From Anaerophilus nitritigenes (GTDB lineage Bacteria; Bacillota; Clostridia; Peptostreptococcales; Thermotaleaceae), in the NCBI RefSeq assembly GCF_004138215.1, contig NZ_RYYS01000042.1, forward strand, positions 1 to 64,000: a DNA stretch of 64,000 nucleotides, written 5' to 3'. Shown here in pieces: positions 45,081 through 62,365 of the stretch. The position numbers and the translations under genes are program-made. The notes under the pieces are model-generated. The model was given only the letters and a program-made list of their open reading frames with translations. It was not told where the DNA came from and ran no database searches. Numbering within the stretch: the first letter of the stretch is position 1; each line of letters starts with the position of its first letter.

Positions 45081-46877
45081 ATGATTAGGATTGAACAAAA
45101 TGCAGATAATTCTTTATTGGATATACGATTTAACTACAATGATGAGTATATACGAAAAATCAAAAAAATTCCTCAAGCTTTTTTTGATCCAAATGAAAAG
45201 AAATGGATTATTGATAAGTCATACATATATATTCTTGAAAAGTTATTTGAAGGAGAGTTTATGTATATTACCCCTAGATGGATTTTGCTAGATGAATCTG
45301 TACCAAATTATACTGAAATGTATAAAGAAATTCCAATTTTAAAAGTTGCATTAAAAAAGCCATATAAACCTCATAAATTTCAGATGTTTGGAATTAATTT
45401 TATTCACAAAAAAATAATAGAATATGGTTTTGCTTGCTTGTTTGATGACATGGGGTTAGGAAAAACATTACAGGCTATAGGAGTTACTAGACTGTTGTCT
45501 AAAAATATTTTAAATTTTAATAAAAAATATGATATTCCTTTTTTGATTGTTTGCAAGGCAGGGCTAAAATATCAATGGAAGGAAGAGGGCGTTGAAAAAT
45601 TTACTAAACTTTCTTCTGTAATTATAGAAGGAACTGCTAAAAAAAGAAAAAGTCTCTATGAAAATGCAATTAAGAAACATATCCCTTATATAATCACTAA
45701 CTATGAATCTTTAAGAAAAGATATTGAATTTATCAGAGAATTTAAGGTAGGTTGCTTAATTTGCGATGAAGCACATAAGATAAGAAATAGAGAAACAGTA
45801 TCACATAAGGCAGTTAAGAAAGTTCAGAAGGAATACGCTTTATTTATGACAGGTTCTCCTATTAACAAAGACCCTTGTGGTATTTTTTCTTTATGCGAAA
45901 TAGGAAATGAAGATTTTATTGGTAATCATGAAGAATATGAAAAAAGATATGTAACAAAAATATATGGTTTATATGGAGTTGAAAAGTTTTACAAAAACTT
46001 AGAAGAGTTTAGACTTAAAATAGAACAGATTGCATTAAGAAGGACAGAAAGAGAAGTAGCTATTGAAATGCCAAAGATAATCGAACAAGATATTTATATT
46101 GATATGACTAAAAATCAGAGGGAAATAGATCATTATCTTGCAGTTGAGATGAGTCTTGCTGTAAATGAATTAGCTAAGATAGTTAAAGTTATAAGAAGCG
46201 AAAAATATGTTTTTATGGCTCCAGAAGAAATTGAAGAAATAGAACAACAGAGAAAAAATTTAGATAGTAAAGTAAGAATGTTTTTAACTTTTAGGTTGCA
46301 ATGTTCTGATAGCCCAGAACTATTCAAAATGTCAGAATCAGATTATGTACATAAAAACATTGTTTCTTTAATTAAAAGCAATAACTCAGGAAAGCTAAAT
46401 TATTTGGTGGAGCATGTGGAAGAATTAATCGAAAGTGGTCATAAAGTAGTTGTTTTTTCTCAATATGCAAGAATGGTTAAACTTATTTCAATAGCATTGA
46501 AGAAGCATAAAACAGTTGTTTTTACTGGTAAGATGTCGGCAGCTCAAAAGAATGAAGCTGTAAACGCATTCAAGAAAAATCCACAGGTAAAATGCTTTAT
46601 TTCTACTAATGCTGGAGCGGAAGGGTTAAATTTGCAAAATGCTAAATATCTCATTAATTATGATATTGATAGAGATATATCTATAAATGATCAAAGAAAT
46701 AAAAGGATAAGAAGGGTTGATAGCATGTTTGAAAAAGTATTTGTTTATAACTATATCTCTAAAGATTCAATAGATGAAAATATAGTTGAAGCAAATAAAG
46801 ACAAAAAGCAGGTTTTTGATTATTTAATAGAAAATAACCTTGAAAAATCAGAGGCTTTAAAGGAATTAAGTTTATAA
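45081..46877 (+). CDS. Solitary SNF2-family helicase with HARP-like N-terminus
   Basis: This 598-residue protein is an SNF2/SMARCAL1-like ATPase. The N-terminal region (about 1-75; IRKIKKIPQAFFDPNEKKWIID) resembles a HARP-type DNA annealing domain. The motor has DDMGLGKT at 122-129, DEAH at 229-232, GSPIN near 255, and a C-terminal lobe with VVVFSQYARMVKLI, STNAGAEGLNLQ and QRNKRIRRVD near 546. AAAGGAG precedes the ATG. It has no partner gene nearby, sits right after the ornithine operon and is different from the helicase in the defence-type operon. It may be phage-derived or a repair helicase. Confidence 0.85.
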   Translation: MIRIEQNADNSLLDIRFNYNDEYIRKIKKIPQAFFDPNEKKWIIDKSYIYILEKLFEGEFMYITPRWILLDESVPNYTEMYKEIPILKVALKKPYKPHKFQMFGINFIHKKIIEYGFACLFDDMGLGKTLQAIGVTRLLSKNILNFNKKYDIPFLIVCKAGLKYQWKEEGVEKFTKLSSVIIEGTAKKRKSLYENAIKKHIPYIITNYESLRKDIEFIREFKVGCLICDEAHKIRNRETVSHKAVKKVQKEYALFMTGSPINKDPCGIFSLCEIGNEDFIGNHEEYEKRYVTKIYGLYGVEKFYKNLEEFRLKIEQIALRRTEREVAIEMPKIIEQDIYIDMTKNQREIDHYLAVEMSLAVNELAKIVKVIRSEKYVFMAPEEIEEIEQQRKNLDSKVRMFLTFRLQCSDSPELFKMSESDYVHKNIVSLIKSNNSGKLNYLVEHVEELIESGHKVVVFSQYARMVKLISIALKKHKTVVFTGKMSAAQKNEAVNAFKKNPQVKCFISTNAGAEGLNLQNAKYLINYDIDRDISINDQRNKRIRRVDSMFEKVFVYNYISKDSIDENIVEANKDKKQVFDYLIENNLEKSEALKELSL

Positions 46878-47274: not shown

Positions 47275-48642
47275 TTGGATAGACAAGTTAGAAGGAAGAA
47301 ATCCTACCCAGAAAGAGAAAATAGAAAAGCACAAGATCAAAGGTTTCATGTAGAAGGAGCTTCTACACAGGCAAATGGCCCTTATTCTCATGCAGAAGGG
47401 ATACAGTCGATTGCAAATGGAGATGGATCTCATGCACAAGGGATTCTAACAAAAGCAGATGGAGCAGCATCACATGCGGAAGGATTTTGTACCAATGCAA
47501 GTGGAGAAGGAGCTCATATAGAAGGTCAATTTGGAATGGCCAATGGAAAGGCTTCCCATGGAGAGGGGCAATCAAGTATAGCTTATGGAGAAGCCTCCCA
47601 TGCAGAAGGATGTTCAACAAAAGCAAACGGAGCTGCATCTCATTCAGAGGGAAGTAAAACAAAGGCAGATGGAGATAGTGCTCATGCACAGGGTTGGGAA
47701 ACACAGGCAAATGGTTTTGCATCTCATGCAGAGGGTATTGAAACCGTAGGGCAAGGAGATGCATCTCATGCACAGGGTTGGGAAACAAAAGCTATAGGAA
47801 TATGTTCTCATGCTCAAGGCATGAAGACAAGTGCAGAGGGAAGATATGCTCATGCTCAAGGAGATCATACAATAGCTAAAGGATTTTGTTCCCATGCTCA
47901 AGGATGTAAAACTATAGCAAGTGGTATGTATTCTCATGCTCAAGGAAAAGGTACCAACACAAATTATTTTCCTGGGACACATATTATGGGAAAAAATGGT
48001 AATGCAGATGCACCGTATTCTTGGTATATAGCTAATGGAATCAGTGAAAAAGTAAAGGGTATTGCTGGGAAATTAGTAGGGCAAACAGGGAATATGGATA
48101 TTGATGGAACATATGGAAGTTTCTATAATGGGTATGGAGAAATGTTTGAAACAATAGATGGAAAAGGTATAGATCCAGGATATTTTGTAACTTTATCAGG
48201 AAGGAAAATAAGAAAAGCCAATCATAAAGATGATTATATTTTAGGAGTTACTACAGAAAATATAGGAATGATGGGAGGAAGTAAAGAATTAAGATGGAAA
48301 AATAAGTATACTAGCAATGAATGGGGTGATGTGGAATATAAGAATATATTAGCTACACCAACACAAGATCAAGAAGGAAAAAATTTATATGAACCTTATC
48401 ATGAAACAGTACCCGTATTAAATCCAGATTGGGATGGAAGTAAGATGTATATACCAAGAAGAAATAGAGAAGAATGGATTTGTGTAGGTTTAGTGGGTCA
48501 AATTCTCGTAAGAGATGATGGAAATTGTAAAGTTAATGGATATTGCAAAGTAAATCATGATGGAATTGCAACAAATGCTTCTGTAGGATATAGAGTGTTA
48601 GAAAGGATTTCGCTGAATCAAATATTAATATTGCTAAGATAG
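47275..48642 (+). CDS. 14-residue head-repeat protein with peptidase G2 autocleavage-type domain
   Basis: The 455-residue protein has three parts: a basic N-terminus (1-23), a repeat region (24-224), and a C-terminal domain. The repeats keep an exact 14-residue period with an SHAEG/SHAQG core and an A-x-G turn, as in YadA-like trimeric head repeats, which form left-handed beta rolls. The C-terminal part (about 295-455; YFVTLSGRKIRKANHKDDYILGV, ILVRDDGNCKVNGYCKV) resembles the peptidase G2 intramolecular cleavage domain of phage appendages. There is no signal peptide or membrane anchor, so secretion is unlikely to be Sec-dependent; assembly in the mother cell onto the spore is plausible. The start is TTG after AAGGAG. 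Confidence 0.85.
   Translation: MDRQVRRKKSYPERENRKAQDQRFHVEGASTQANGPYSHAEGIQSIANGDGSHAQGILTKADGAASHAEGFCTNASGEGAHIEGQFGMANGKASHGEGQSSIAYGEASHAEGCSTKANGAASHSEGSKTKADGDSAHAQGWETQANGFASHAEGIETVGQGDASHAQGWETKAIGICSHAQGMKTSAEGRYAHAQGDHTIAKGFCSHAQGCKTIASGMYSHAQGKGTNTNYFPGTHIMGKNGNADAPYSWYIANGISEKVKGIAGKLVGQTGNMDIDGTYGSFYNGYGEMFETIDGKGIDPGYFVTLSGRKIRKANHKDDYILGVTTENIGMMGGSKELRWKNKYTSNEWGDVEYKNILATPTQDQEGKNLYEPYHETVPVLNPDWDGSKMYIPRRNREEWICVGLVGQILVRDDGNCKVNGYCKVNHDGIATNASVGYRVLERISLNQILILLR
47344..47946 (+). repeat. 42-bp coding repeats (15 units)
   Basis: Fifteen units encode 14 residues each, with no insertions or deletions between the first core (FHVEG at residue 24) and the last (SHAQG at residue 220). 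DNA similarity between units is partial, concentrated at TCTCATGCA(G/C)A. A degenerate further unit (THIMG) follows one residue out of register. Confidence 0.9.
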
Positions 48643-48671
48643 AAAAGGTCTTATTATAGACCTTTTCTTTT
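48641..48671 (+). terminator. Terminator after the repeat protein gene
   Basis: AGAAAAGGTCT pairs with AGACCTTTTCT around a short loop, followed by a T-run, directly at the stop codon. Confidence 0.85.
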
Positions 48672-48729
48672 GGAATAACTATTGCTACACTATCATATAA
48701 TGAATGGAAAAAGAATGAGGGGTGATGAG

Positions 48730-49635
48730 ATGAAGGAAAGAAGGTTATCTTCTATTTTAGAGATGGATGAAAATATAAAAGTATATAAAGATGGAAATTA
48801 CAACAGTTTAGGTTTTATTAAGGAACATGAAAAAGAGAGATTGTTAGTATTTTTAAATGATGAAAAGTATTTATCTGATTTGGAAAAGAATCCTAATATT
48901 AGCTGTGTAATTTGTTCTGAAAATATTTTAGAAAAAATAAAAAATAAAGATATAGGTATATGTATAGCAAATGATCCAAAGATTACCTTTTATAGATTGC
49001 ATAATTATTTAGCAAAAAATACAGAGTTTTATGGAAAAAATTTCAGTAGTCAAATTAGTAAAACAGCACACATTCATCCAACAGCATATGTATCTGATCA
49101 AAACGTAATTATAAAAGATGGAGTAAAAATAGGACCCAATGTGACTATATTAGATAATGTATATATTGGAGAGGATACGATCATAAGAGCAGGATGTGTG
49201 ATAGGGACAGAGGGATTTCAGTTTGCAAGAATAGAAGACGATATTTTACCTATAGTTCATGCAGGAAAAGTAATCATTCATGATCATATAGAATTTCAAG
49301 CCAATTGTTGCGTGTCCAAAGGAATTTTTGGTGAGGCTACAGAAATAGGACAAAAATGCAAATTTGATAATTTAGTTCATATTGCTCATGGAGTACGTAT
49401 GGGAAAAAGATGTTTGGTTGCAGCAAATGCTATGATTGCAGGATATACAACTATTGGGGATGATGTATGGATAGGACCATCTGCAAGCATTAGCAATATG
49501 ATTTATATAGGAGATGGAGCCAATATAACAATAGGTGCAGTTGTAACAAAAAATGTAGGGGATAGACAATCTGTCAGTGGAAATTTTGCCATTGACCATG
49601 ATAGATTTATTTCTTTTTTAAAATCTATTCGATGA
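48730..49635 (+). CDS. LpxD-like left-handed beta-helix acyltransferase
   Basis: The 301-residue protein has an N-terminal uridine-binding-like domain (about 1-95) and hexapeptide repeats (about 100-280), such as TAHIHPTAYVSDQNVIIKDGVKIGPNVTI. LVHIAHGVRMG contains H217 and H220, matching the LpxD catalytic-histidine region, and the IGTEGFQFA segment is also LpxD-like. LpxD N-acylates UDP-3-O-acyl-glucosamine in lipid A synthesis, which Gram-positives normally lack. Here it probably N- or O-acylates an amino sugar made by the dehydrogenase and aminotransferase encoded nearby. The ATG follows AGGGGTGA. Confidence 0.82.
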   Translation: MKERRLSSILEMDENIKVYKDGNYNSLGFIKEHEKERLLVFLNDEKYLSDLEKNPNISCVICSENILEKIKNKDIGICIANDPKITFYRLHNYLAKNTEFYGKNFSSQISKTAHIHPTAYVSDQNVIIKDGVKIGPNVTILDNVYIGEDTIIRAGCVIGTEGFQFARIEDDILPIVHAGKVIIHDHIEFQANCCVSKGIFGEATEIGQKCKFDNLVHIAHGVRMGKRCLVAANAMIAGYTTIGDDVWIGPSASISNMIYIGDGANITIGAVVTKNVGDRQSVSGNFAIDHDRFISFLKSIR

Positions 49636-49650
49636 ATCAATGGCAAAATA

Positions 49651-50637
49651 TTATAGGATACCTTCCTTTTTTAAAGTATCTAACATATAAAGTACTCTAT
49701 TTTCATAGGAATGTTGTGATGCAATAGCATGACCTTGTGATTGTATTTTTTTTCGTTCTTCTGGATGACTTTTATAATAATGAATATAGCTAATTGTTTC
49801 TTCAGGAGATGAAGAAGCAATTAAATCATATCCTGGTTTGAAAATTTTTCTTACTACTAATGTATCAGAGGTAATTAAAAATCCTCCACATCCTAATATT
49901 TCGTAAGTTCTTTGAGTCAATTGTGTATGTTTATTTTGAAGACCTAAGATGATATCAGCAGAAGAATATACTTTGTTTGCATCTAAATAGTGTAGATATC
50001 CATGTATCCAATCTTTTGGAATTTCAATACCCATAATATTTTTCATCAATTCCCAATCATTCCCCCAAAAGTCAACCCGTATATTTTCTTTAATTAGTGG
50101 AGTAATTAAATTTTTGATGGATTGATGACGATAAAGATAAGGATATTGATTCAATATACTAGGATAAGGATTTGCAATCACAGCAATAGAACACTTATAT
50201 TTAGGATCAGGATCTGTTTTATAATGAATATTAGGAAGATATCCATAGTCCATATGAGCAGATTTAAATCCTAATTTTTTAAAATATTCTACTCTTTCTT
50301 TACATATAGTAAATACAAAATGAGGACGAACAGTTCTTATATAAGGAAGGACTACTGTATCTGTATGATCAGGATCTTCTAAGGACCAATAAATATGAGG
50401 AATATTTGTCTTTGGAATATGTTTTGCAATCCAATGATAATATTGAGGAGTCTGATAAATTCCCCATCCCATAGAGATAATAAGATCAGGATGAAATTCA
50501 TGGATCATTTGAGGAATATGATGTTCTGCTTGTAGGCCTTTTATTCCAGAAATTTTTACTTCGTGTCCTAGATTTTTAAAGGCTTGAGGTAGTAGATATT
50601 CCCATACCACACTATACTCAATAAAAAATATACGCAA
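49651..50637 (-). CDS. CgeB-like glycosyltransferase
   Basis: The 328-residue protein resembles CgeB, a spore-surface glycosyltransferase family with a GT-B fold. The N-terminal domain (IFFIEYSVVWEYLLPQAFKNLGHEV, DLIISMGWG, HIYWSLEDPDHTD) and the C-terminal domain (VYSSADIILGLQNKHTQLTQRTYEILGCGGFLITS) both fit. The second is the sugar-nucleotide binding region with the conserved glutamate. In Bacillus, CgeB is made late in sporulation and acts on the outer spore layer. It is first to last in a minus-strand set with a dehydrogenase and an aminotransferase. The ATG follows GGAGGTGC. Confidence 0.85.
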   Translation of the reverse strand: MRIFFIEYSVVWEYLLPQAFKNLGHEVKISGIKGLQAEHHIPQMIHEFHPDLIISMGWGIYQTPQYYHWIAKHIPKTNIPHIYWSLEDPDHTDTVVLPYIRTVRPHFVFTICKERVEYFKKLGFKSAHMDYGYLPNIHYKTDPDPKYKCSIAVIANPYPSILNQYPYLYRHQSIKNLITPLIKENIRVDFWGNDWELMKNIMGIEIPKDWIHGYLHYLDANKVYSSADIILGLQNKHTQLTQRTYEILGCGGFLITSDTLVVRKIFKPGYDLIASSSPEETISYIHYYKSHPEERKKIQSQGHAIASQHSYENRVLYMLDTLKKEGIL

Positions 50638-50678
50638 TATAGCACCTCCTTCTCATGGATCAATTTGGTATAGCATAA

Positions 50679-50719
50679 TGTAAAATCTCTATCACAAGAT
50701 AGAGATTTTACATTTTTTT
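50679..50719. terminator. Strong hairpin after the Gfo/Idh gene
   Basis: A 15-bp perfect stem (TGTAAAATCTCTATC with its complement) and a 4-nt loop, followed on the plus strand by seven Ts. It contains the stop codon region of the minus-strand dehydrogenase gene. The T-run faces plus-strand transcription, while minus-strand transcripts leave through TTATGC, so the expected direction is unclear. Confidence 0.65.
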
Positions 50720-51658
50720 AATTTTTGTTAAAATCCTATTTGCAGTGACTAAATTTTTAAAACCATCATATCCATCTACAAAAGGAGTTTTATTCATTTG
50801 TATATTTCTTATAAAGGAAAGGATCTCATTTTTTAAAGGATTTGTATTAGGAATATATATTTTTTTAAAGATTTGATCTAAAGAATATTTTCTTTGAATA
50901 TCTATATGAGAACATCTTGAAATGGTTATAGATTTTTTTAGAAAGTCTACATCGATATAGGCATTTTTTGCATGAATGATAAGTTTTCTTACCCTTTCTT
51001 CTGTGATACGACTAGCAGTAAGACTGACTAAAATATCATTTTCATATTCAATAAGGGCTTGGGCATAATCTATGGATTCATGGCTATAAACAGATTTTCC
51101 TTGTGATAAAATATTTTTGATAGAGGAACCTAAAAGATAATGCATAATATCTATATCATGAATCATAAGATCGTGAATGACATCAGTATCATATATTCTA
51201 TTGGTATAAGGACTAAGGCGTTTAAATTCTAAAGAGATAATTTCTTCATCCTTTAGAATTTCTAAAAGCTTATCTACGACTGGATTAAATCTTTCAATGT
51301 GACCAACTTGTAAAATGACTTTATTTTCTTTACATACTTCTATTAATTTTTTAGCTTCTTTAGGAGTGTTACAAATAGGTTTCTCCACTAAAATATGTTT
51401 TTTTTCTTTTCCACATAATACACCGTAATAAAAGTGTAAAGAGGTAGGAACACAAATAATAACAGCATCTACTTTCTTTAATAAATCATCTATTTCTGAA
51501 AAAAAAAGGATATTGTATTGACTAGATGCTTTTTCTCCTTGTATAGGATCAATATCAAAAAAACCTATTAAGTTTAAATTTTTAATTTCTTGACATACTT
51601 GTATATGCTTTTGTCCCATGTTTCCTGCTCCTATAACCCCTATATTTAAATTATTCAT
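50708..51658 (-). CDS. Gfo/Idh/MocA-type sugar-nucleotide dehydrogenase
   Basis: The 316-residue NAD(P)-dependent oxidoreductase has the Rossmann motif IGVIGAGNMGQKHIQ at its start, the catalytic EKPICNTPKEA motif with lysine near residue 92, and DLMIHDIDIMHYLLG with the paired histidines near 175. Members that work with DegT aminotransferases, such as GnnA or WlbA, oxidise the 3-hydroxyl of a UDP-sugar. Its start overlaps the end of the aminotransferase gene by eight bases (ATG preceded by TTGAGG), so the two are coupled. I infer UDP-3-keto-sugar formation; the exact substrate is unknown. Confidence 0.85.
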   Translation of the reverse strand: MNNLNIGVIGAGNMGQKHIQVCQEIKNLNLIGFFDIDPIQGEKASSQYNILFFSEIDDLLKKVDAVIICVPTSLHFYYGVLCGKEKKHILVEKPICNTPKEAKKLIEVCKENKVILQVGHIERFNPVVDKLLEILKDEEIISLEFKRLSPYTNRIYDTDVIHDLMIHDIDIMHYLLGSSIKNILSQGKSVYSHESIDYAQALIEYENDILVSLTASRITEERVRKLIIHAKNAYIDVDFLKKSITISRCSHIDIQRKYSLDQIFKKIYIPNTNPLKNEILSFIRNIQMNKTPFVDGYDGFKNLVTANRILTKIKKM

Positions 51659-52733
51659 AAAGATTGATGACCTCAACAACTTTTAAAAGTTCGTCTTTAG
51701 ACAAAAGAGGGTGTACAGGGATGGATACAACTTCTTGACTGACTTTAAGAGTTATAGGAGTAGTGTTAGGGTCATATCCAAGTTCTTTATAATAAGGCTG
51801 AGCATTGAGTGGGGTAGGATAATAAATACCATATCCAACATTATTTTTTTCTAAATGTTTTATGAATTGAGCACGATCTTTTACTTTTAGTGTATATTGA
51901 TGATACACAGGATCACACTTAGAAGGTACAACAGGAAGTTTGACTTGATTATTTTTTATATGGTTATTATAAAATTTTGCATTTTCTTTTCTTTTGTTAT
52001 TAAAATCATTTAATTTATTTAATTGTTCAATTCCTAAAGCTGCCGCAATATTTGTCATTCTAAAGTTATAACCAAGCTGTGTATGAATATATCTTTCTTT
52101 TTGACCATGACTGATGAGTCTTTGTAAATTTTCATAAATGCTTTTATTTTTTGTAAGAATCATTCCACCTTCTCCAGTAGTCATATTTTTAGTTGGATAA
52201 AAGCTATAAGCAGATGTAGTGCCAAAAGTTCCTACGTATTGATCATTATATTTTGCCTCATGGGCTTGGGCACAATCTTCTATAAGAAGTAAATTGTATT
52301 TTTTTACAAGCTTCATAATCCTTTCCATATTACAAGGAAGTCCAAACAAGTGTACAATTAATATTCCTTTAATATCGTTATGAATTTTTAAAAGTTCTTC
52401 TACATGATTTACATCTATATTGAAGGTATCAGGATCAATATCAGCAAAAACGGGAATGGCTCCTTCAAATAATAAACTGTTGGCAGTAGCTGCAAAGGTA
52501 AAAGGGGTGGTGATAATCTTGTCTCCTTTCTTAATATTACATGCAATGATTGCTGCATGGAGAGCTGTTGTTCCAGAGGATGTAGCTACTCCATAAGGCA
52601 TATGAAAATAGGTTGCAAAATTATTTTCAAAATCTGAAACAGTTTGACCAGATGCTATATTTCCACTTTTTAAGATTTGTTGCACATGAAATATTTCTTC
52701 AGTTCCAATACTGGGTTTTGCAATTGGAATCAT
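51651..52733 (-). CDS. DegT/DnrJ/EryC1-type sugar aminotransferase
   Basis: The 360-residue PLP enzyme transfers an amino group to a keto sugar nucleotide. Landmarks are MIPIAKPSIGTEE, TSSGTTALHAAIIA near residue 51, LLIEDCAQAHEA near 149, and the PLP lysine K182 in SFYPTKNMTTGEGG, and the sugar-binding NFRMTNIAAALG follows. Its coupling to a Gfo/Idh dehydrogenase resembles GnnB or WlbE pairs that make 3-amino sugars. A CDP-4-keto-6-deoxyglucose substrate from the RfbF/RfbG pair nearby is an alternative. The ATG is chosen after AAAGGAG. Confidence 0.9.
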   Translation of the reverse strand: MIPIAKPSIGTEEIFHVQQILKSGNIASGQTVSDFENNFATYFHMPYGVATSSGTTALHAAIIACNIKKGDKIITTPFTFAATANSLLFEGAIPVFADIDPDTFNIDVNHVEELLKIHNDIKGILIVHLFGLPCNMERIMKLVKKYNLLLIEDCAQAHEAKYNDQYVGTFGTTSAYSFYPTKNMTTGEGGMILTKNKSIYENLQRLISHGQKERYIHTQLGYNFRMTNIAAALGIEQLNKLNDFNNKRKENAKFYNNHIKNNQVKLPVVPSKCDPVYHQYTLKVKDRAQFIKHLEKNNVGYGIYYPTPLNAQPYYKELGYDPNTTPITLKVSQEVVSIPVHPLLSKDELLKVVEVINLYE

Positions 52734-52853: not shown

Positions 52854-54194
52854 CTATCCCAAAATTTTTTGAATCCAGTTTTTATTTTTATGATCTTCTA
52901 ATTCTTTTTTTAAATTATTATTTTCTTTTTTATATTCTTCTAAAAGAAAAGATAATTCTTCATATTCCTTTGAGAGTTGATTGATTTTTTCTTGATAGAT
53001 TTCACTATTTTTTCTTATTCTATCTACATATTCTTTATTTTGTATTTCAAGGCGATTGATTTCTTCTTTCAAGTAATTAATATTTCCTTGTAATGCCTGT
53101 AAGAGTTTAGTTTTATTTTCTAGTTCATTATTTTTTTTGTATAATTCTCCTTTTAAGTTGTTAGATGGTTTCTTATTATTCAAACTTATAAAAGAAGGAG
53201 TATGAATAGGAATAATGTCATATGAAGCTTTTGATAATAGATAATTTCCTTCATAAGGAATCAAAAAAGAGTGATTACTTTTAATGAATTTAATGATAAA
53301 GATATCATCAGAAGAAGTATCTATAGTAGATGGTTTGCTCCAAACACTAGATATATTTGTGAATGGTTTAGAAGAATAATAAATAGTATTATCTATTATT
53401 CCATAAGAAGTAATAAGGTTTTTTTGTAACAAAAGAATGCAATTTATAAAGGGTGTAGGATTACTTATAATGACTTGTGGATCATCAGAAGGATATTGAT
53501 TTTGTTTAATAGATATATATTTTATACAATATGATTTTTTTTCTTTATCTGTAAACACAATATGAATGGTATTTTTATCATCTATGAGAGCATCAAGTAA
53601 AAAATTTTTTAAAAATATACAATGACATAAGAAAAAAGGGTCTTCCCAATCGTCATTTTCAATAGAAAGCTTTGTAAGCATTAAATCATAAATCATATTT
53701 TGTTTTTTTAAGTAAATACAATAAAGATTATTATAAATATCTTTTATTAGAATATAGGGTTTGATTTCTTCTTTTAAATAAAGACGATGAATGACTTCTT
53801 TTTTCCATAATTCATCTTGTCGGTAGTAAGAAAGAATAGACCATTCAAAAGGAGAAGAAAGATTATGCCAAGAAAATAAGATATAAGGGCAATCCCCAAA
53901 AAGTTTAATACTAACATATTTAAACTCTTCTAATTCAAAATTTACCTCGTATAACAAATAAAAAGACCATTCATTGTTTTTTTCATACATATAAAAGAGC
54001 TTTCCTTTTTCATCTAAAATTACAATTCCTATATGATCACTTTTATTGATATCCACATCAAATTCAAGTATTTTTTTTTCATATAAGATAATATCTTCTT
54101 CTTGATAATGATAATGAAGAAGATTTTGATCATCCATATAAAACCGTACCGTCTCTTTATTAATATTTAAAATAATATTTTTAGAAAAGGACAT
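52854..54194 (-). CDS. Hypothetical beta-rich protein with C-terminal coiled coil (paralogue 1)
   Basis: I do not recognise a named family. The 446-residue protein has a long N-terminal region (about 1-330) of repeated aromatic-rich strands, in phrases such as LFYMYEKNNEWSFYLLYEV and TIHIVFTDKEKKSYCIKYI. These suggest a beta-propeller, with each blade near 45-50 residues. The C-terminal 100 residues are a coiled coil (LQGNINYLKEEINRLEIQ, LEEYKKENNNLKKELEDH) ending KNWIQKILG. No signal peptide is present. It is related in layout to the gene at 55230-56561. The ATG is chosen about seven bases after AGGTAGGTG. The upstream DNA contains a sigma-K/E-like -10 (CATAATGTA on the minus strand). Confidence 0.65.
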   Translation of the reverse strand: MSFSKNIILNINKETVRFYMDDQNLLHYHYQEEDIILYEKKILEFDVDINKSDHIGIVILDEKGKLFYMYEKNNEWSFYLLYEVNFELEEFKYVSIKLFGDCPYILFSWHNLSSPFEWSILSYYRQDELWKKEVIHRLYLKEEIKPYILIKDIYNNLYCIYLKKQNMIYDLMLTKLSIENDDWEDPFFLCHCIFLKNFLLDALIDDKNTIHIVFTDKEKKSYCIKYISIKQNQYPSDDPQVIISNPTPFINCILLLQKNLITSYGIIDNTIYYSSKPFTNISSVWSKPSTIDTSSDDIFIIKFIKSNHSFLIPYEGNYLLSKASYDIIPIHTPSFISLNNKKPSNNLKGELYKKNNELENKTKLLQALQGNINYLKEEINRLEIQNKEYVDRIRKNSEIYQEKINQLSKEYEELSFLLEEYKKENNNLKKELEDHKNKNWIQKILG

Positions 54195-54278
54195 GATCAT
54201 CACCTACCTATTTTAAATATATTAATAATGAAACTACATTATGAAAAAGATTTTATAAAGAATTTATGAATTTGAATC

Positions 54279-54306: not shown

Positions 54307-54370
54307 CAAGTAAAGAAACATGATTCATACCTACTTAAAAAGTATTTTATGGGTAGAAGGGGGAAAATAT

Positions 54371-55192
54371 ATGTATAAGTCAACATCTTGTGGAACGAGC
54401 ATATACACTCCTGGTGTAATTCCAGAAGAATTAAGAGAACAATTTGGAAATGCATGTGAATTAGTATGTGTTCAAATTCCAAAAGTTTATGATTCCTGTT
54501 TATTAAGAGTATGTTTAGTAGGGAATGATAGAAAATCAAAATCAAAAGAAGGTATTTTATTTGATCCAGATCTTAAAGTAAGAATTGATTGTAGTGCAGA
54601 TGGTATTGTAAATCCAAGAGTAGTTGGAATTGTACCAGGATCTTTTAAAGTATTGGATAAAAAAAGTATGTCATCAGATCCAGATAGAAAGTTTATTACT
54701 TTCACTTATCAATTAAGAATTTTATATGATATTGTATTTGATGATGGAACTATTTCTAGGGATAATGAGCTTTTATTAAGAAGAAGTGAAACAGTAGGGC
54801 CTCTATATTGCCCAGAATCATTAGCTATTATTAGAGAGAGCAAGGTAGATCAATCAGGAATTGTTCATCCACCTGAAGATGTAGATGATAATATTGTAAA
54901 ACTAGAGATTATAGCAAAAGTTTTAGATGCACAAATTATAAGGGATGATTGTAAGACACCTTGTGATCCTTATGATGATCAATGCTTTGCAGTATTTACA
55001 GTAGGGATTTATCATATTATAAAATGCGAATTGATTGTACAATTAGTAATACCAGCATTTGGATTCTGTCCACCACCTGCTCCATGTGAAAGAATGGGAG
55101 AGCCTTGTGAGATATTCAATCAAGAGTTACCACCAGATTTCTTCCCACCACAATTAGATAATTTTATTACAGGACCTGGAATAGATTGCTAA
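54371..55192 (+). CDS. Hypothetical cysteine-motif protein, possible spore-surface component (1)
   Basis: The 273-residue protein is unnamed. Residues 32-48 carry VCVQIPKVYDSCLLRVC, the pattern VCx4KVYx5RxC shared with the protein at 56760-57467. The middle (about 60-200) looks like all-beta sequence, with FDPDLKVRIDCSADG and FTYQLRILYDIVFDDGT. The C-terminal part is cysteine- and proline-rich (CKTPCDPYDDQCF, FGFCPPPAPCERMGEPCEIF). The KVYD motif resembles DUF3794/SPOCS-type spore proteins, at low confidence. I chose the ATG after GAAGGGGGA. It has no signal peptide, faces two minus-strand paralogues and is followed by a bidirectional terminator. Confidence 0.6.
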   Translation: MYKSTSCGTSIYTPGVIPEELREQFGNACELVCVQIPKVYDSCLLRVCLVGNDRKSKSKEGILFDPDLKVRIDCSADGIVNPRVVGIVPGSFKVLDKKSMSSDPDRKFITFTYQLRILYDIVFDDGTISRDNELLLRRSETVGPLYCPESLAIIRESKVDQSGIVHPPEDVDDNIVKLEIIAKVLDAQIIRDDCKTPCDPYDDQCFAVFTVGIYHIIKCELIVQLVIPAFGFCPPPAPCERMGEPCEIFNQELPPDFFPPQLDNFITGPGIDC

Positions 55193-55199
55193 ATCAAAT

Positions 55200-55232
55200 A
55201 AAAATGCACTGAATACTTTCAGTGCATTTTTA
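55200..55232. terminator. Bidirectional terminator between converging genes
   Basis: A 13-bp perfect stem AAAAATGCACTGA/TCAGTGCATTTTT with a short loop. It lies between the plus-strand cysteine-motif gene and the minus-strand paralogue and can serve both. Confidence 0.88.
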
Positions 55233-56561
55233 TTTAAATAAATTTTTAAGTTTATTGCGAAAATTATCTGGATTGTTTTCTAAAAAGGCATGAAGCTTGG
55301 AATACAGTTGAAACAACTCATCCATTCTTTTGTTGTGTAAAATTTGTTGTTCATATAGAGTATAAAAATTTTCTTTGAGTTCTTTTTGCATTATTTTGAT
55401 GTTTTTTATTTCTTCTATGATTTTTAAGAAATGATCTTCTTGAAGAGATAACTGATTTGTATCACTCGATAAATCCACCTCTAAATCTTTTGTATCATCA
55501 GAGTTATTTCCTTGTGAAGAGAATGATGGAAGAGGATCATCTACTCCTATAAGAAAGATTTTATTTTCAAAGAATAATCCATAACTACTTAAAACTTTTA
55601 CTTTTTCTAAAGACTTATATTGATTTCCTAATAAAGAAATACAAAAAGGTTTATGATCATTTTCTACATGTATTTCACAAGAGGGACTCCATAATTGTTC
55701 GTAAATATTTTTACGAGTAACAAAATAATAGTTACCTTCTTTCCATATCATATGAATTTCATTATCTATTTGAAGCAAAATAGGATGTGTGCTATTTGTA
55801 TTCACATTAGACAAACATATAGGTTGACTCCAATCATTTTTTGGATGATTTAATTGTTCTTGATACATATAAAAGATAGCAAGATTATTATCATAAAAGC
55901 TAGACCATATAATATGAATCGCTCCTAAAGAATCGCAAAGGATAAAAGGATGAGAATGATCATCAAAAGAACTATTGATTTTTACCGGGATACTCCATGA
56001 ATCATAAAAAATATGATATTTACAATAATATAGTTGATATTGTTTGTCGTAAGATGATTTAAATATAATATGGATATGTCCATCAGGATCTGTATCTGAA
56101 CAAAAGGGGACATCATATTTTTCTGTAACCATATCACATACTTTTCTATTACTCCAAGAGGAGCCATTCCAATAGTGATGCTTAAGTATCCATAATTCTG
56201 GATGAATAATATTAGAGATAGCCATGAGAATATGAATATGATCATCCATTATAAATAGTTTTAAGTTTTTAAATACAAAAGATTTTGAATCATACTTTGT
56301 GAGATAGCGATATTCCCATTTATGATCTTGATAAATACAATATTTTAAGTCTCCATAAGAAGAAATACTTACAAGATGAAATACTCCAAAAGAGTCTATG
56401 GTAACACAATAATCAATAATATTTTCGCTAATTTTTAAAGTCCCATAGATTGTATTATCTTTTAAAGTTTTCATATAAAGATGGTCTTCTTCCATATAAA
56501 AATAATAGGTAAAGCCTGATAAGTTATAAGATATGTATTGAGAAGTACAAGGTATATTCAT
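55230..56561 (-). CDS. Hypothetical beta-rich protein with C-terminal coiled coil (paralogue 2)
   Basis: The 443-residue protein has the same plan as the one at 52854-54194. An N-terminal region of about 340 residues has repeated propeller-like blades (DGHIHIIFKSSYDKQYQLYYCKY, GAIHIIWSSFYDNNLAIFYMY, EIHMIWKEGNYYFVTR). A linker and a C-terminal coiled coil follow (EDHFLKIIEEIKNIKIMQKEL), ending NKLKNLFK. The HIIW/HIVF motifs recur about every 45-50 residues. It has no signal peptide. AGGAGGT precedes the ATG, and CATACATTA, a sigma-E/K-like -10, lies upstream (56595-56603 read on the minus strand). A structural or glycan-binding role on the spore is a guess. Confidence 0.65.
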   Translation of the reverse strand: MNIPCTSQYISYNLSGFTYYFYMEEDHLYMKTLKDNTIYGTLKISENIIDYCVTIDSFGVFHLVSISSYGDLKYCIYQDHKWEYRYLTKYDSKSFVFKNLKLFIMDDHIHILMAISNIIHPELWILKHHYWNGSSWSNRKVCDMVTEKYDVPFCSDTDPDGHIHIIFKSSYDKQYQLYYCKYHIFYDSWSIPVKINSSFDDHSHPFILCDSLGAIHIIWSSFYDNNLAIFYMYQEQLNHPKNDWSQPICLSNVNTNSTHPILLQIDNEIHMIWKEGNYYFVTRKNIYEQLWSPSCEIHVENDHKPFCISLLGNQYKSLEKVKVLSSYGLFFENKIFLIGVDDPLPSFSSQGNNSDDTKDLEVDLSSDTNQLSLQEDHFLKIIEEIKNIKIMQKELKENFYTLYEQQILHNKRMDELFQLYSKLHAFLENNPDNFRNKLKNLFK

Positions 56562-56759: not shown

Positions 56760-57467
56760 ATGATAAAAAATTCACCTTATCAAAAAACAATGGAGCCTTC
56801 TCCATATGCAACAGCTAATGATGCAAAATTAAAAAAGCAATCCAATACTATAAAAGATTTAGAACCTGTATGCATATTAGCTGATAAAGTATATTCTTAT
56901 GGTCAACAAAGAGATTGCTTTCCAAATTTTAAAGTAGAGATAAAGCATAAAGGAGAACAATTTCAGTTTATGGGAATTTATTTTCAGGAAGGATACATAT
57001 GTGAAGAAACTTTACAAGTGACTCCTTTAGGTGCAAAGAGACCCAATTTTTCTAGAATTCAATTTCATTTAAAAATACCTTTTACAGTACAATTAAGAAA
57101 TATTTTATCAGGAGAAATTATACAGATCAATGGATGTTTACCAGAGTTGATCAAGGATGTTGTCATGTACATGCCTCAAGCAAGAAATGAATTTAATTTT
57201 AAAATTGTAGTAGAAACTCGTTCAGAAGTTTTAGCTCCTGTAGAGCTATTTAAAGGCTATATTATAATTCCAACAGGAGTACTTTCTGTAATTCGAGTTG
57301 TAGGGAGAATTGAGCTTTTGGTTGCAGCATATTCTTTAAATTCTGAGCCACCTGAAGTAGAAAATTTTGAAGAATGTGAAAAAAAGATGTATGAAGAATT
57401 TGAAAAAAGAGTTTTTCCATATGATTTTTTTCCAACGGAATTTGAAGATAAAGATATGGGTTTTTAA
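56760..57467 (+). CDS. Hypothetical cysteine-motif protein, possible spore-surface component (2)
   Basis: The 235-residue protein shares VCILADKVYSYGQQRDC (residues 37-53) with the protein at 54371-55192: both match VCx4KVYx5RxC. The rest is predicted beta sheet (FSRIQFHLKIPFTVQLRN, GVLSVIRVVGRIELLVAA) with an acidic C-terminus. There is no signal peptide. AAGGAGG precedes the ATG. It is directly followed, after 17 bases, by a glycosyltransferase gene, so the two may be co-expressed and the protein could be a glycosylation target. That link is inference. Confidence 0.6.
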   Translation: MIKNSPYQKTMEPSPYATANDAKLKKQSNTIKDLEPVCILADKVYSYGQQRDCFPNFKVEIKHKGEQFQFMGIYFQEGYICEETLQVTPLGAKRPNFSRIQFHLKIPFTVQLRNILSGEIIQINGCLPELIKDVVMYMPQARNEFNFKIVVETRSEVLAPVELFKGYIIIPTGVLSVIRVVGRIELLVAAYSLNSEPPEVENFEECEKKMYEEFEKRVFPYDFFPTEFEDKDMGF

Positions 57468-58646: not shown

Positions 58647-58778
58647 GTGCTAATTTTAGTACAAAAAATAGGCGGAACCATTTCTAAAAATAATACATAG
58701 GTTAAATTGAGTAGATAAACTAAGGCAACTATTCGAATGATTTATATAACATCAAGAAATATAGAATGGAGGAGGAAA

Positions 58779-59564
58779 ATGAAAGTTGTTATTTTATGTG
58801 GGGGAAAAGGTCTAAGAATGAAAGATAAATATGATTTACCCAAACCTCTGCAAAAGATAGGTGACAAACCTATATTATGGCATATTATGAAAACTTATAT
58901 GTATTATGGCGTTGATGAATTTATTTTACTTTTAGGATATGAAGGAGAAAAAATTAAGGAATATTTTATGAACGATTATTGGAAAAACAATAATTTTATA
59001 TTAGATAGAAAAGAAAATAAAATTTATCTTATAGAAGAATATGAAAAATGGAAAATAACTTTTGTAGATACAGGAAAAGACACTATGACAGGTGGAAGGA
59101 TTAAACAAATTGAAAATTTGATTGAAGATGAAACATTCATGCTTACCTATGGAGATGGACTTTCAGATGTTCATATTAAAAATCTATTAGATTTTCATAA
59201 TAAACATAAAAGAATTGCAACACTCACAGGTATTCAAAAGAATAGCTCTTATGGGAGGTTGATTGTAAAGGATCATATAGCTAAGTCTTTTGAAGAGAAA
59301 CCTTCTACTGAGGAAATTATCAACGGTGGATTCTTTGTATTGAATAAAAAAATATTTGATTATATTTCAGATGAAAAAAATTGTATATTTGAACAAGAAC
59401 CTTTGATGAATCTTGCAAAAGATGGACAATTGGCAGTTTATCCTCACAAAGGATTTTGGATAGGCATAGATACTTATAAAGAGTTAGTAACTGTCAATGA
59501 AATGTATGCTCAAAAAAAAGCCCCATGGGAGGTTTGGAAAAATGAAGAATCATTGGGAAAATAA
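58779..59564 (+). CDS. Glucose-1-phosphate cytidylyltransferase-like (RfbF)
   Basis: The 261-residue nucleotidyltransferase starts [38 protein letters not shown]. The signature GGKGxR...PKPL is that of sugar-1-phosphate nucleotidyltransferases, and [22 protein letters not shown] and [12 protein letters not shown] favour the RfbF type that makes CDP-glucose. [14 protein letters not shown] and [29 protein letters not shown] also fit RfbF. The partner dehydratase overlaps its end by 23 bases. The ATG is chosen after GGAGGAGG; an upstream ATG adds 14 residues and lacks a site. Confidence 0.87.
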
Positions 59565-60510
59565 AAATGTATTGATTACAGGGGCTACAGGTTTTTTAGG
59601 AGGATATTTGACAAATAGACTAATAGAAAAAGGAGCAAATGTAATTGCTTTATTTAGAGATCATATCAAAAATATAAAATTTAATAAAAATGTGAATTGG
59701 ATAAAAGGAGATCTAACAGATAGATATTTATTAGAAAGAATATTAGGAGAATATGAAATTGATACAGTATTTCATTTAGCTGCTCAAGCTATTGTAGGTA
59801 TTGCCAATAAAAATCCCATATCTACCTTTGAATCAAATATATTAGGAACATGGAATGTACTTGAAGCTTGTAGAAGAAGTCCTTTGGTTAAAAATATTAT
59901 TGTAGCTTCTAGTGATAAAGCGTATGGAGAACAAGATCTACCTTACAAAGAAGAGATGGCTCTTATGGGAAAACATCCTTATGATGTATCAAAAAGCTGT
60001 GCCGATTTAATTAGTATGTCTTATTATCATACTTATAAACTTCCTGTTTGTATTACAAGATGTGGAAATTTATATGGAGGAGGAGACATGAATTTTAATC
60101 GAATCATTCCTCAAACTATTGAGTCTATTTTAAATCAAAACTCTCCAATTATTAGAAGTGATGGAACTTTTGTTAGAGATTATTTTTATGTAGAAGATGC
60201 AGTAGAAGCTTATTTATTGTTAGGAGAAAAAATGAGTGAGCTTAAATTGTATGGAGAGGCATTTAATTTTGGTAGCGAAGGATATTTATCTGTAATAGAG
60301 CTTGTAAAGTTAATATTAAAATTAATGGACAGTCATTTAGAACCTATTGTTTTGAACGAAGGAAATCATGAGATCAAAAATCAATATCTTTCTATAGAAA
60401 AATCAAAAAAAATATTAAAATGGAAGCCTCATTTTACTTTAGAAGAGGGGATAAAAAAGACTATTGATTGGTATAGGAAATACGCTCAAGGAGAGGTAAA
60501 ATATGGATAA
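59542..60510 (+). CDS. CDP-glucose 4,6-dehydratase-like (RfbG)
   Basis: The 322-residue short-chain dehydrogenase-type enzyme has the NAD motif [14 protein letters not shown] at 10-23 and the catalytic Y147xxxK151 in [43 protein letters not shown] and [21 protein letters not shown] are close to RfbG, which converts CDP-glucose to CDP-4-keto-6-deoxyglucose. It starts inside the RfbF-like gene, with GGGAGG upstream of the ATG, and ends overlapping the first DxD glycosyltransferase gene by eight bases. No RfbH-type dehydrase is in the window. Confidence 0.87.
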
Positions 60511-61420
60511 TGGTTTTTGTATTGTTGTATCTAAATATAGGGTATATCAAGGAATCGTGCTCATAGAGTCATTGTGTGAAAATATAGAAAATCCTCAAAT
60601 ATTTGTGTTGTGTATGGATCATGAAGGATATGAAATTTTATCTCGATATAACAAAAATAATATAAAAGTTATTTCAATTTACGAGCTAGAAGATGAAATA
60701 CTTCTTTCTAAAAAAAGAGAAAGAAGCTTTACTGCATATTGCTGGACGCTTAAACCTATATTTTTAGAACATATAATCAATCATTTTTCAAATCTAAAAA
60801 GGGTAACTTATTTAGATGCTGATATTTATTTTTTAAATGATGTAAAATCAATTTTCAAAGAAAATATAAATTCTTCTGTTCTATTATCAAATCACAATTA
60901 TACAAAGAGTTTAAAAAAATATGAAGCTATATGTGGGAAATATAATTCAGGATTTATTAGCTTTAAAAGAGATGAAAAGGGACTAAATGCATTAAAATGG
61001 TGGAAAGACAAGTGTTTGTCGTGGTGTAGTGAAGTGATTGAAAAAGAAAGATTTGGAGACCAAAAATATTTAGATGAAATGATTCTTTTATGGGATGGAG
61101 TAGAAGAAATTCAAACTATAGGAACAAACATTGGATTTTGGAATCATGGCAGATATAAAACAAGTATCATAGAGGATAAGGTATATATTAATAATGTTCC
61201 TTTAATTTTTTATCATTTTGCAGGATTTAGAATTTTAAATGAACAAGAATTTGCATTTACAATTGGATTTAGAAATGAATTTGTAAATCATGTATATCTT
61301 CCCTATATGAAAAAAATTCAGGAGTCTATTAAAAGAGTAAAGGATATTTTTCCAAATTTCCCACAATATTTTTATGATAGAAATCAGCTAAAAGGAGCAA
61401 CTATTTATACCATTTCTTAA
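60503..61420 (+). CDS. DxD glycosyltransferase, tandem copy 1
   Basis: The 305-residue protein has a GT-A type metal-binding D105-A-D107 in [28 protein letters not shown] comes before it, and [30 protein letters not shown] and [10 protein letters not shown] after it. [14 protein letters not shown] is near the C-terminus. The pattern resembles GT8-like surface glycosyltransferases. It is about the same length as, and clearly paralogous to, the next protein. It overlaps the RfbG-like gene by eight bases, so it is probably coupled to synthesis of the deoxy-sugar. Confidence 0.82.
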
Positions 61421-61435
61421 ATAGGGAGGGAGGAT

Positions 61436-62365
61436 ATGGATAGGTTTCATTTTTCTACGGTGATCTCTAATGGGTATTTATACAAGGTACTTGCCATGTA
61501 CCAAAGTCTCAAGAAATATTGTAATAATTTTAGATTATATATATTGTGTATAGATCAAAGTGCATATGACATTTTATATGACTTAAAACTTTCATATGTA
61601 GTTCCTATTCATTTATCTAATATAGAAGATAGGCATTTGAAAAAAATAAAGTATACTCGTACTAAGGGAGAATATGCATGGACTCTAAAGCCTGTCATGA
61701 TGCATTATGTGATGAAACATTTTAAAGATGCAAAGTATTTTGCTCATTTAGATGGAGATCTCTATTTTTATGAAAATATAGAAAAAATATTTAATGAAAA
61801 TCAAGAAGCCTCGCTTTATTTAACTGATCATAACAATTCAAAAAGATTTTTAGATACTTATAATATAACAGGAAAATATAATACTGGATTTGTAGGATGT
61901 AAGAATGATGAAATTGGTTATGATGCAGTAAATTGGTGGAAAGATCAATGTATTCTTTGGTGTTATAAAGATGCAGATCAAAAAAATAAAAGATTTGGGG
62001 ATCAAAGATATGTAGAAATGTGGGAAGAAAAATTTTCAAATGTACATGTAATAAAAACGATAGGAGCCAATGTAGCCATCTGGAATATAGATAATTATCG
62101 AGTATCCTCTAAAGAAGATAAGATATATGTAGAGGATGAAAAAATGATTTTTTATCATTTCTCAGGACTTAGTATATATAATGATCAAGAGTTCAATCTT
62201 TGTTGGTTTGAAGGGTTATCAGATCAAGTCGTAAAATATATTTATATACCTTATTTAAAAGAATTAAGTGATATGATTCAATATATAAAAAAAAGATATC
62301 CTAAATTTGAAAGTGGATGGATCAAAAGAGGAAGCGTCAGAGATGTTCATTACTTTCATTTATAA
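61436..62365 (+). CDS. DxD glycosyltransferase, tandem copy 2
   Basis: The 309-residue paralogue of the previous gene keeps the same landmarks: D106-G-D108 in HLDGDLYFYE, EYAWTLKPVMMHYVMKHF, KYNTGFVGCKNDEIGYDAVNWWKDQCILWC, FGDQRYVEMW and KMIFYHFSGLSIY. The metal motif is DGD rather than DAD. GGGAGG precedes the ATG and 15 bases separate it from copy 1. The two enzymes may add successive sugars in one chain. A long hairpin ends the operon. Confidence 0.82.
   Translation: MDRFHFSTVISNGYLYKVLAMYQSLKKYCNNFRLYILCIDQSAYDILYDLKLSYVVPIHLSNIEDRHLKKIKYTRTKGEYAWTLKPVMMHYVMKHFKDAKYFAHLDGDLYFYENIEKIFNENQEASLYLTDHNNSKRFLDTYNITGKYNTGFVGCKNDEIGYDAVNWWKDQCILWCYKDADQKNKRFGDQRYVEMWEEKFSNVHVIKTIGANVAIWNIDNYRVSSKEDKIYVEDEKMIFYHFSGLSIYNDQEFNLCWFEGLSDQVVKYIYIPYLKELSDMIQYIKKRYPKFESGWIKRGSVRDVHYFHL

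Follow-up and report, generated by a model that had tools for sequence, protein, structure and literature searches.

An LpxD-like gene beside a GnnA/GnnB-type gene pair in Anaerophilus nitritigenes, predicted to serve an N-acylated 3-amino sugar of the spore surface

LpxD, UDP-3-O-(3-hydroxyacyl)glucosamine N-acyltransferase, is usually taken to indicate lipid A and an outer membrane, and the pair GnnA/GnnB is known from the lipid A of Acidithiobacillus and Leptospira. In the Wbp and Wbp/Vim pathways (WbpA-B-E-D; VimE, VimA) a 3-amino sugar nucleotide is likewise made by oxidation and transamination and is then N-acylated. Anthrose, a 4-amino-6-deoxy sugar, carries a 3-hydroxyacyl group. The anthrose operon antABCD is described for the exosporium of Bacillus anthracis (PMC10050317). 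Here, a stretch of 64,000 nucleotides from Anaerophilus nitritigenes (contig NZ_RYYS01000042.1, below called the window) was analysed. The host is a monoderm that forms spores, and an LpxD fold is combined in it with a dehydrogenase of GnnA type. The locus encodes an LpxD-like protein, a CgeB-like glycosyltransferase, a Gfo/Idh dehydrogenase and a DegT aminotransferase, all four at the place given in the original prediction, whose main points are supported; the system is a variant assembled from known enzyme types. With a probability of roughly 0.55, the task of these genes is to produce an N-acylated 3-amino sugar (from a UDP-3-amino sugar, probably 3-hydroxyacylated) and to place it on a glycan of the spore surface; we infer its substrates, acyl group, order of steps and destination from the evidence below.

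LpxD was the nearest curated family to the LpxD-like protein, yet the scores remained below the cut-offs, with 151.1 bits for TIGR01853 (cut-off 242.5), 178.6 bits for NF002060 (E 1.8e-52, cut-off 207) and 16.1 bits for PF04613 (cut-off 30.8). Identity with E. coli LpxD was 25%. A structure was predicted with AlphaFold2 (AF2) from an alignment of 54 sequences, with a predicted local distance difference test score (pLDDT) of 92.4. All 25 best Foldseek matches of this model were full-length matches to LpxD, and LpxD filled the top 10 rows of a second structure comparison (VIA table; Z 28.2–28.6). The two-domain LpxD architecture is present, with an N-terminal domain of the UDP-binding type and a left-handed beta-helix. 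The root mean square deviation (rmsd) from LpxD was about 18 Å over both domains, so the mutual placement of the domains differs; taken by itself, the beta-helix region fitted 3pmo with 2.6 Å. The histidine region is intact, as the original prediction stated: H236 aligns with His239 of E. coli LpxD and is conserved in 53 of the 54 aligned sequences. F57 is a phenylalanine in 44 of these and position Y63 a tyrosine or phenylalanine in 48, and the two align with the uracil-stacking aromatic pair of LpxD known from the Chlamydia structure. Because of the fold, H236 and this aromatic pair, the protein is expected to be an acyltransferase that binds a UDP-sugar.

The Gfo/Idh protein had its closest sequence match in 7bvj, GnnA of Acidithiobacillus ferrooxidans (E 8.4e-36). 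The same entry led for the predicted structure (Z 40.4, with 298 residues superposed at an rmsd of 1.5 Å; next entry Z 36.5), so that GnnA, and not an inositol dehydrogenase, is the closest structural relative, well ahead of the UDP-N-acetylglucosaminuronic acid (UDP-GlcNAcA) enzyme WlbA (3q2k, Z 34.9). The best curated model, NF040723, was built for archaeal sequences, and its 226.7 bits against a cut-off of 450 therefore have little bearing on a bacterial GnnA. In the DegT protein the pyridoxal phosphate (PLP)-lysine motif SFYPTKN is intact; the nearest solved chains include the C3-aminotransferase QdtB (3frk) and 5u1z, and the best curated model is PseC, a C4 enzyme. An overlap of 8 bp joins the two genes in each of four genera, represented by the window and by G012, G009 and G005 (G numbers denote genomes, the window genome being G000). 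An overlapping pair of GnnA/GnnB type had been predicted, and the matches to GnnA and QdtB support it. A UDP-GlcNAcA route through WbpA was rejected for this locus: WbpA-like genes lie elsewhere (G000:C21) and none at the locus, and WlbA is the poorer structural match.

The arrangement is conserved in five genomes, the window genome (3.06 Mb, 99.5% complete, locus on contig C51) and its relatives, and is thus not due to chance; relatives include Marinisporobacter (Thermotaleaceae) and Anaerosolibacter. Strong GnnA homologues (E 1e-99 or better) occur in five of the 394 genomes of the order, in every case with an LpxD-like and a DegT gene no more than about 7 kb away. As all belong to one family, these cases represent linkage kept over divergence and not five independent events. 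DegT, LpxD-like and GnnA-like genes are also adjacent in a Clostridiales metagenome-assembled genome (MAG; L118) outside the five. The predicted CgeB-like glycosyltransferase beside the LpxD-like gene was confirmed by PF13524 and PF12996, both above cut-off, with orthologues in G001, G012 and G005; in these three, as in the window, the fibre-like gene adjoins or lies near the LpxD-like gene. No match to LpxC (PF03331) was obtained in any of the five genomes, with positive control searches, and spoIVA is present in all five, in line with the Gram-positive host originally proposed. PF04613 had no match in the window genome. Membership of lipid A LpxD was ruled out by the curated LpxD scores below cut-off together with the absent LpxC.

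Genes suited to making an acyl donor recur beside the LpxD-like gene. In Marinisporobacter (G012, locus L025) the fibre gene is separated from the pair of LpxD-like genes by an acyl carrier protein (ACP), two ketoacyl synthases III (KASIII), two FabG-like short-chain dehydrogenase/reductase (SDR) reductases, an AMP ligase and AcpS, and in G005 (L027) an ACP, a ligase and an SDR stand beside the LpxD-like gene. A MaoC-type hydratase takes this place in Proteocatella (L029/L071) and in L095, and a thiolase with a 3-hydroxyacyl-CoA dehydrogenase in Methanosarcina spelaei (L053) and an actinomycete MAG (L127). ACP-like genes, a ligase, FkbH or KASIII are found nearby in L125, L119, L070 and L111. 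For L070 and L125 the ACP-like proteins gave no Pfam hit, and their identification comes from phmmer and the serine motif. Judged by the enzyme families, several of the gene sets would yield a 3-hydroxyacyl thioester. The window genome holds two polyhydroxyalkanoate (PHA)-type operons with a PhaJ-like hydratase elsewhere (L149, L150; operons typed by eye), which should provide (R)-3-hydroxybutyryl-CoA.

The motif ATA-N16-CATATAAT precedes the start of the LpxD-like gene by 49–60 bp in four of four genomes (G000, G001, G012 and G009) with diverged spacers; in 130 bp of comparable DNA its chance occurrence is about 3e-4. It corresponds in sequence to a predicted sigma-E promoter, with a −35 ATA and a −10 CATA-type box about 16–17 bp apart. 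In C. difficile the −10 boxes of sigma-E and sigma-K are very similar and the two are distinguished by ATA or AC at −35; the CATATAAT box has been reported at a sigma-K promoter of this species (PMC3789822). AC and CATAATATA boxes, of sigma-K type, precede the gene at 54320. As a calibration, the 160 bp upstream of spoIVA were inspected, where the exact motif was absent and a conserved CATATATATATA stretch was present in four of five genomes; the sigma-E assignment thus rests on the published consensus. The upstream regions of the DegT operon and the fibre gene gave no shared motif. An alternative TTG start of the LpxD-like gene proposed by the open reading frame tool (48682) falls within the conserved promoter-like motif, which makes the ATG at 48730 the better start. 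The conserved sigma-E-type box favours expression during sporulation. Together with the donor genes in relatives, it supports the acylated amino sugar on a spore or cell-surface glycan of the original prediction.

In the proposed pathway the GnnA-like dehydrogenase would oxidise UDP-N-acetylglucosamine (UDP-GlcNAc) at C3, and the DegT aminotransferase would convert the 3-keto group to an amine, so that UDP-GlcNAc3N results. With this UDP-sugar bound, the LpxD-fold enzyme would use an acyl thioester to acylate the new amine, with H236 as general base. The acyl group would probably be 3-hydroxyacyl, and in the window genome most simply (R)-3-hydroxybutyryl because of the two PHA-type operons. 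The CgeB-like glycosyltransferase would move the sugar onto a glycan built in the mother cell, under the sigma-E-type promoter, for the spore surface. The fibre-like protein, which resembles phage pre-neck appendages, is possibly a spore appendage bearing the glycan.

Several points weigh against this proposal. The LpxD-like protein ends in the motif GNFAIDH where lipid A LpxD has its own C-terminus, and acyl-donor recognition may therefore differ. The window locus itself has no acyl-donor gene, and the excess of donor genes within five genes of the LpxD-like gene (27 of 677, compared with 3 of 453 further out; p 4.5e-4) is biased upwards and not to be taken at face value, as the seeds came partly from the same loci. 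Genome-wide, the exact promoter motif was counted 15 times and a reversed control 11 times, so the promoter case rests on conserved position and not on rarity. None of the window proteins is assigned to the spore by a curated family.

The main rival explanation is a plain acetyl-CoA N-acetyltransferase in the role of WbpD, with a 2,3-diacetamido sugar as product, in which case only the protein fold would recall lipid A synthesis; we consider this doubtful. A scan of the genome collection gave 521 related stretches, from which 80 loci were retained. In many of these the LpxD-like gene stands beside WbpA/WbpB/WbpE, the enzymes of UDP-2-acetamido-3-amino-glucuronic acid, at the position expected for WbpD. 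This neighbourhood supports a 3-amino sugar nucleotide as substrate of the family and also makes acetyl-CoA possible as donor, the place held being that of an acetyltransferase. Archaeal relatives of the LpxD-like protein exist, and to our knowledge archaea lack the bacterial fatty-acid synthase. The known Wbp cluster product is di-N-acetylated (PMC7468200), and the missing donor gene in the window counts in the same direction. On the other side, dedicated acyl-ACP or 3-hydroxyacyl-CoA genes recur by the LpxD-like gene in several lineages, and an acetyl-CoA enzyme would need none. The WbpD-type enzyme 8e62, with about 180 amino acids, aligns to residues 145–301 only, so the LpxD-like protein is no short single-domain enzyme of this kind.

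A glycan of vegetative cells (capsule, S-layer or wall polymer) as destination agrees with related family members in ordinary surface-polysaccharide clusters, but is improbable given the sigma-E-type motif in four genomes, the CgeB-like glycosyltransferase and the sigma-K-like box at the 54320 gene. It is very improbable that the DegT/Gfo pair serves a CDP-glucose pathway leading to an amino-dideoxy sugar with which the LpxD-like enzyme has nothing to do. The rfbF/rfbG-like genes at 58737–60510 lie 6–8 kb from the pair (TIGR02623 and TIGR02622, both below cut-off), but the DegT/Gfo/CgeB/LpxD set is complete in G005, where the fetched region holds neither homologue, and a Gfo/Idh protein closest to UDP-GlcNAc 3-dehydrogenase would be needless in a 4-keto-6-deoxy pathway. 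This pathway was accordingly rejected as home of the pair, there being no conserved association, and an aminotransferase for CDP-4-keto-6-deoxyglucose, named in the original prediction as a case that would refute it, is unlikely. A membrane glycolipid, that is a lipid A-like sugar with long acyl chains in a monoderm, could draw on the LpxD fold and on the ACP and condensing enzymes of G012, but can hardly be credited: LpxC gave no match in five genomes and PF04613 none in the window genome, and the condensing enzymes of the cluster are of KASIII type, with no elongating FabF, which suggests short chains.

Table 1. Coordinates of features at the LpxD-like locus of the window.
Feature	Coordinates	Strand	Basis
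Fibre-like protein, SHAEG head-type repeats and C-terminal Peptidase_G2 (self-cleaving chaperone)	47275..48642	+	PF11962 E 6.5e-38; phrog_4775 pre-neck appendage
Inverted repeat AAAAGGTCTTATTATAGACCTTTT, terminator-like, between fibre gene and LpxD-like gene	48643..48666	+	direct sequence reading; also in G001
Promoter-like motif ATA-N16-CATATAAT, sigma-E type	48675..48701	+	position kept upstream of LpxD-like gene in 4 genomes
LpxD-like N-acyltransferase (predicted), 301 aa, N-terminal UDP-binding-type domain and left-handed beta-helix	48730..49635	+	profiles, AF2 model, H236
CgeB-like glycosyltransferase	49651..50637	-	PF13524 E 1.1e-23 (Glyco_trans_1_2), PF12996 E 2.8e-10 (DUF3880)
GnnA-like UDP-GlcNAc 3-dehydrogenase (Gfo/Idh) (predicted)	50708..51658 from ATG, or 51679 from TTG	-	NF040723 E 4.4e-67; 7bvj
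GnnB-type DegT aminotransferase	51651..52733 from ATG, or 52766 from TTG	-	PF01041 E 2.2e-113; PLP-lysine motif

Further genes of the window surround those of Table 1. A weakly similar pair (52854–54203 and 55230–56561, 22% identity, no Pfam family) is interleaved with two genes without assigned function (54320–55192 and 56760–57467), and all four probably encode spore surface proteins of no known family. Two adjacent similar genes of no known family at 60503–62365, after the CDP-glucose genes, showed about 36% identity in cross-comparison with G001 and are probably glycosyltransferases. On the other side of the locus, an SNF2-type helicase gene (45081–46877) takes the place of the racemase-like and MaoC hydratase genes of G001, and ornithine-degradation genes adjoin.

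Relatives of the LpxD-like protein were found in Bacillota, Chloroflexota, Bacteroidota, Pseudomonadota, Acidobacteriota, archaea and others. One record, L049 (JADPRS010000027.1), is labelled Lutibacter sp. B2 (Bacteroidota), but the genome has spoIVA and clostridial relatives, and the label looks wrong. The same thiolase follows the LpxD-like gene at L053:10878-13134 and L127:12187-14461, accompanied by a 3-hydroxyacyl-CoA dehydrogenase with a zinc-ribbon-like start. At L070:3861-6029 the neighbours are an ACP-like gene and FkbH, a possible glyceryl-ACP donor, and at L119:12057-15079 a ligase and a fusion of an ACP-like protein with phosphoenolpyruvate (PEP) mutase. In a quick tree with one lipid A LpxD, G005 was on a long branch and its position is not safe. 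Among the papers available to the search, none was found that joins LpxD with clostridial spores or describes this LpxD-like family.

The G009 and G012 loci each encode a further LpxD-like protein and one with an LRHDVD motif, and G001 has a second LpxD-like gene elsewhere in its genome, beside a PIG-L-like gene; unlike these three, the window genome gave only weak matches and no close copy. Second LpxD-like proteins and/or deacetylase-like genes of the LRHDVD or PIG-L type lie by LpxD-like genes at L025:8072-10969 (in G012), L026:2530-4252, L033:8184-9792 and L127:9119-9820. These second enzymes and deacetylase-like genes suggest a step of deacetylation and reacylation. The LRHDVD neighbour had no match among solved structures or in Pfam, and its label as a deacetylase comes from the LRHDVD motif, read by eye.

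A broader proposal is put forward tentatively, with the odds somewhat against it. A widespread LpxD-fold family outside lipid A synthesis may acylate 3-amino sugar nucleotides, drawing on various acyl thioesters encoded in the clusters, for the most part 3-hydroxyacyl ones, and in spore-formers give a previously undescribed 3-hydroxyacylated diamino sugar on the spore surface. Some relatives may have, with a deacetylase and another LpxD-like enzyme, a full order of reactions parallel to LpxA, LpxC and LpxD. If true, a large family of sugar acyltransferases, for which relatives supply their own acyl-carrier and chain-making genes, would be added outside lipid A synthesis. New acyl-amino sugars would be predicted on spores and on archaeal and bacterial surfaces, with a second route, unlike that of anthrose, to hydrophobic spore-coat sugars. 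Since relatives outside lipid A synthesis are common, the origin of the lipid A acyltransferases becomes testable.

Among known systems, the UDP-GlcNAc 3-dehydrogenase set for the archaellin glycan of the archaeon Methanococcus maripaludis is represented by NF040723, which scores best among curated models with the Gfo/Idh protein, although below cut-off; the acyltransferase of this set is not known to be LpxD-like. From the Wbp pathways the window differs in its acyltransferase, which belongs to another, two-domain family, and the sugar is probably no uronic acid because the locus lacks WbpA. The deacetylate-and-reacylate logic of VimE/VimA is comparable, and the gene sets of G009, G012 and G001 recall both these steps after the Wbp pathway (PMC7468200) and the acylate-deacetylate-acylate order of LpxA, LpxC and LpxD. 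Like GnnA/GnnB, the window pair combines a dehydrogenase nearest to GnnA by structure and sequence with an overlapping partner aminotransferase, but its neighbours are an LpxD-fold enzyme and a glycosyltransferase instead of LpxA and lipid A genes. With LpxD, the LpxD-like protein shares the two-domain fold, the His239 equivalent and, by our reading, N-acylation of a UDP-amino sugar, and differs in its scores below the curated cut-offs, the GNFAIDH C-terminus, the lack of LpxC, the monoderm host and an amine probably at C3. For the product, the closest precedent is anthrose, an N-acylated amino sugar on the spore surface which, by its description, depends on different genes.

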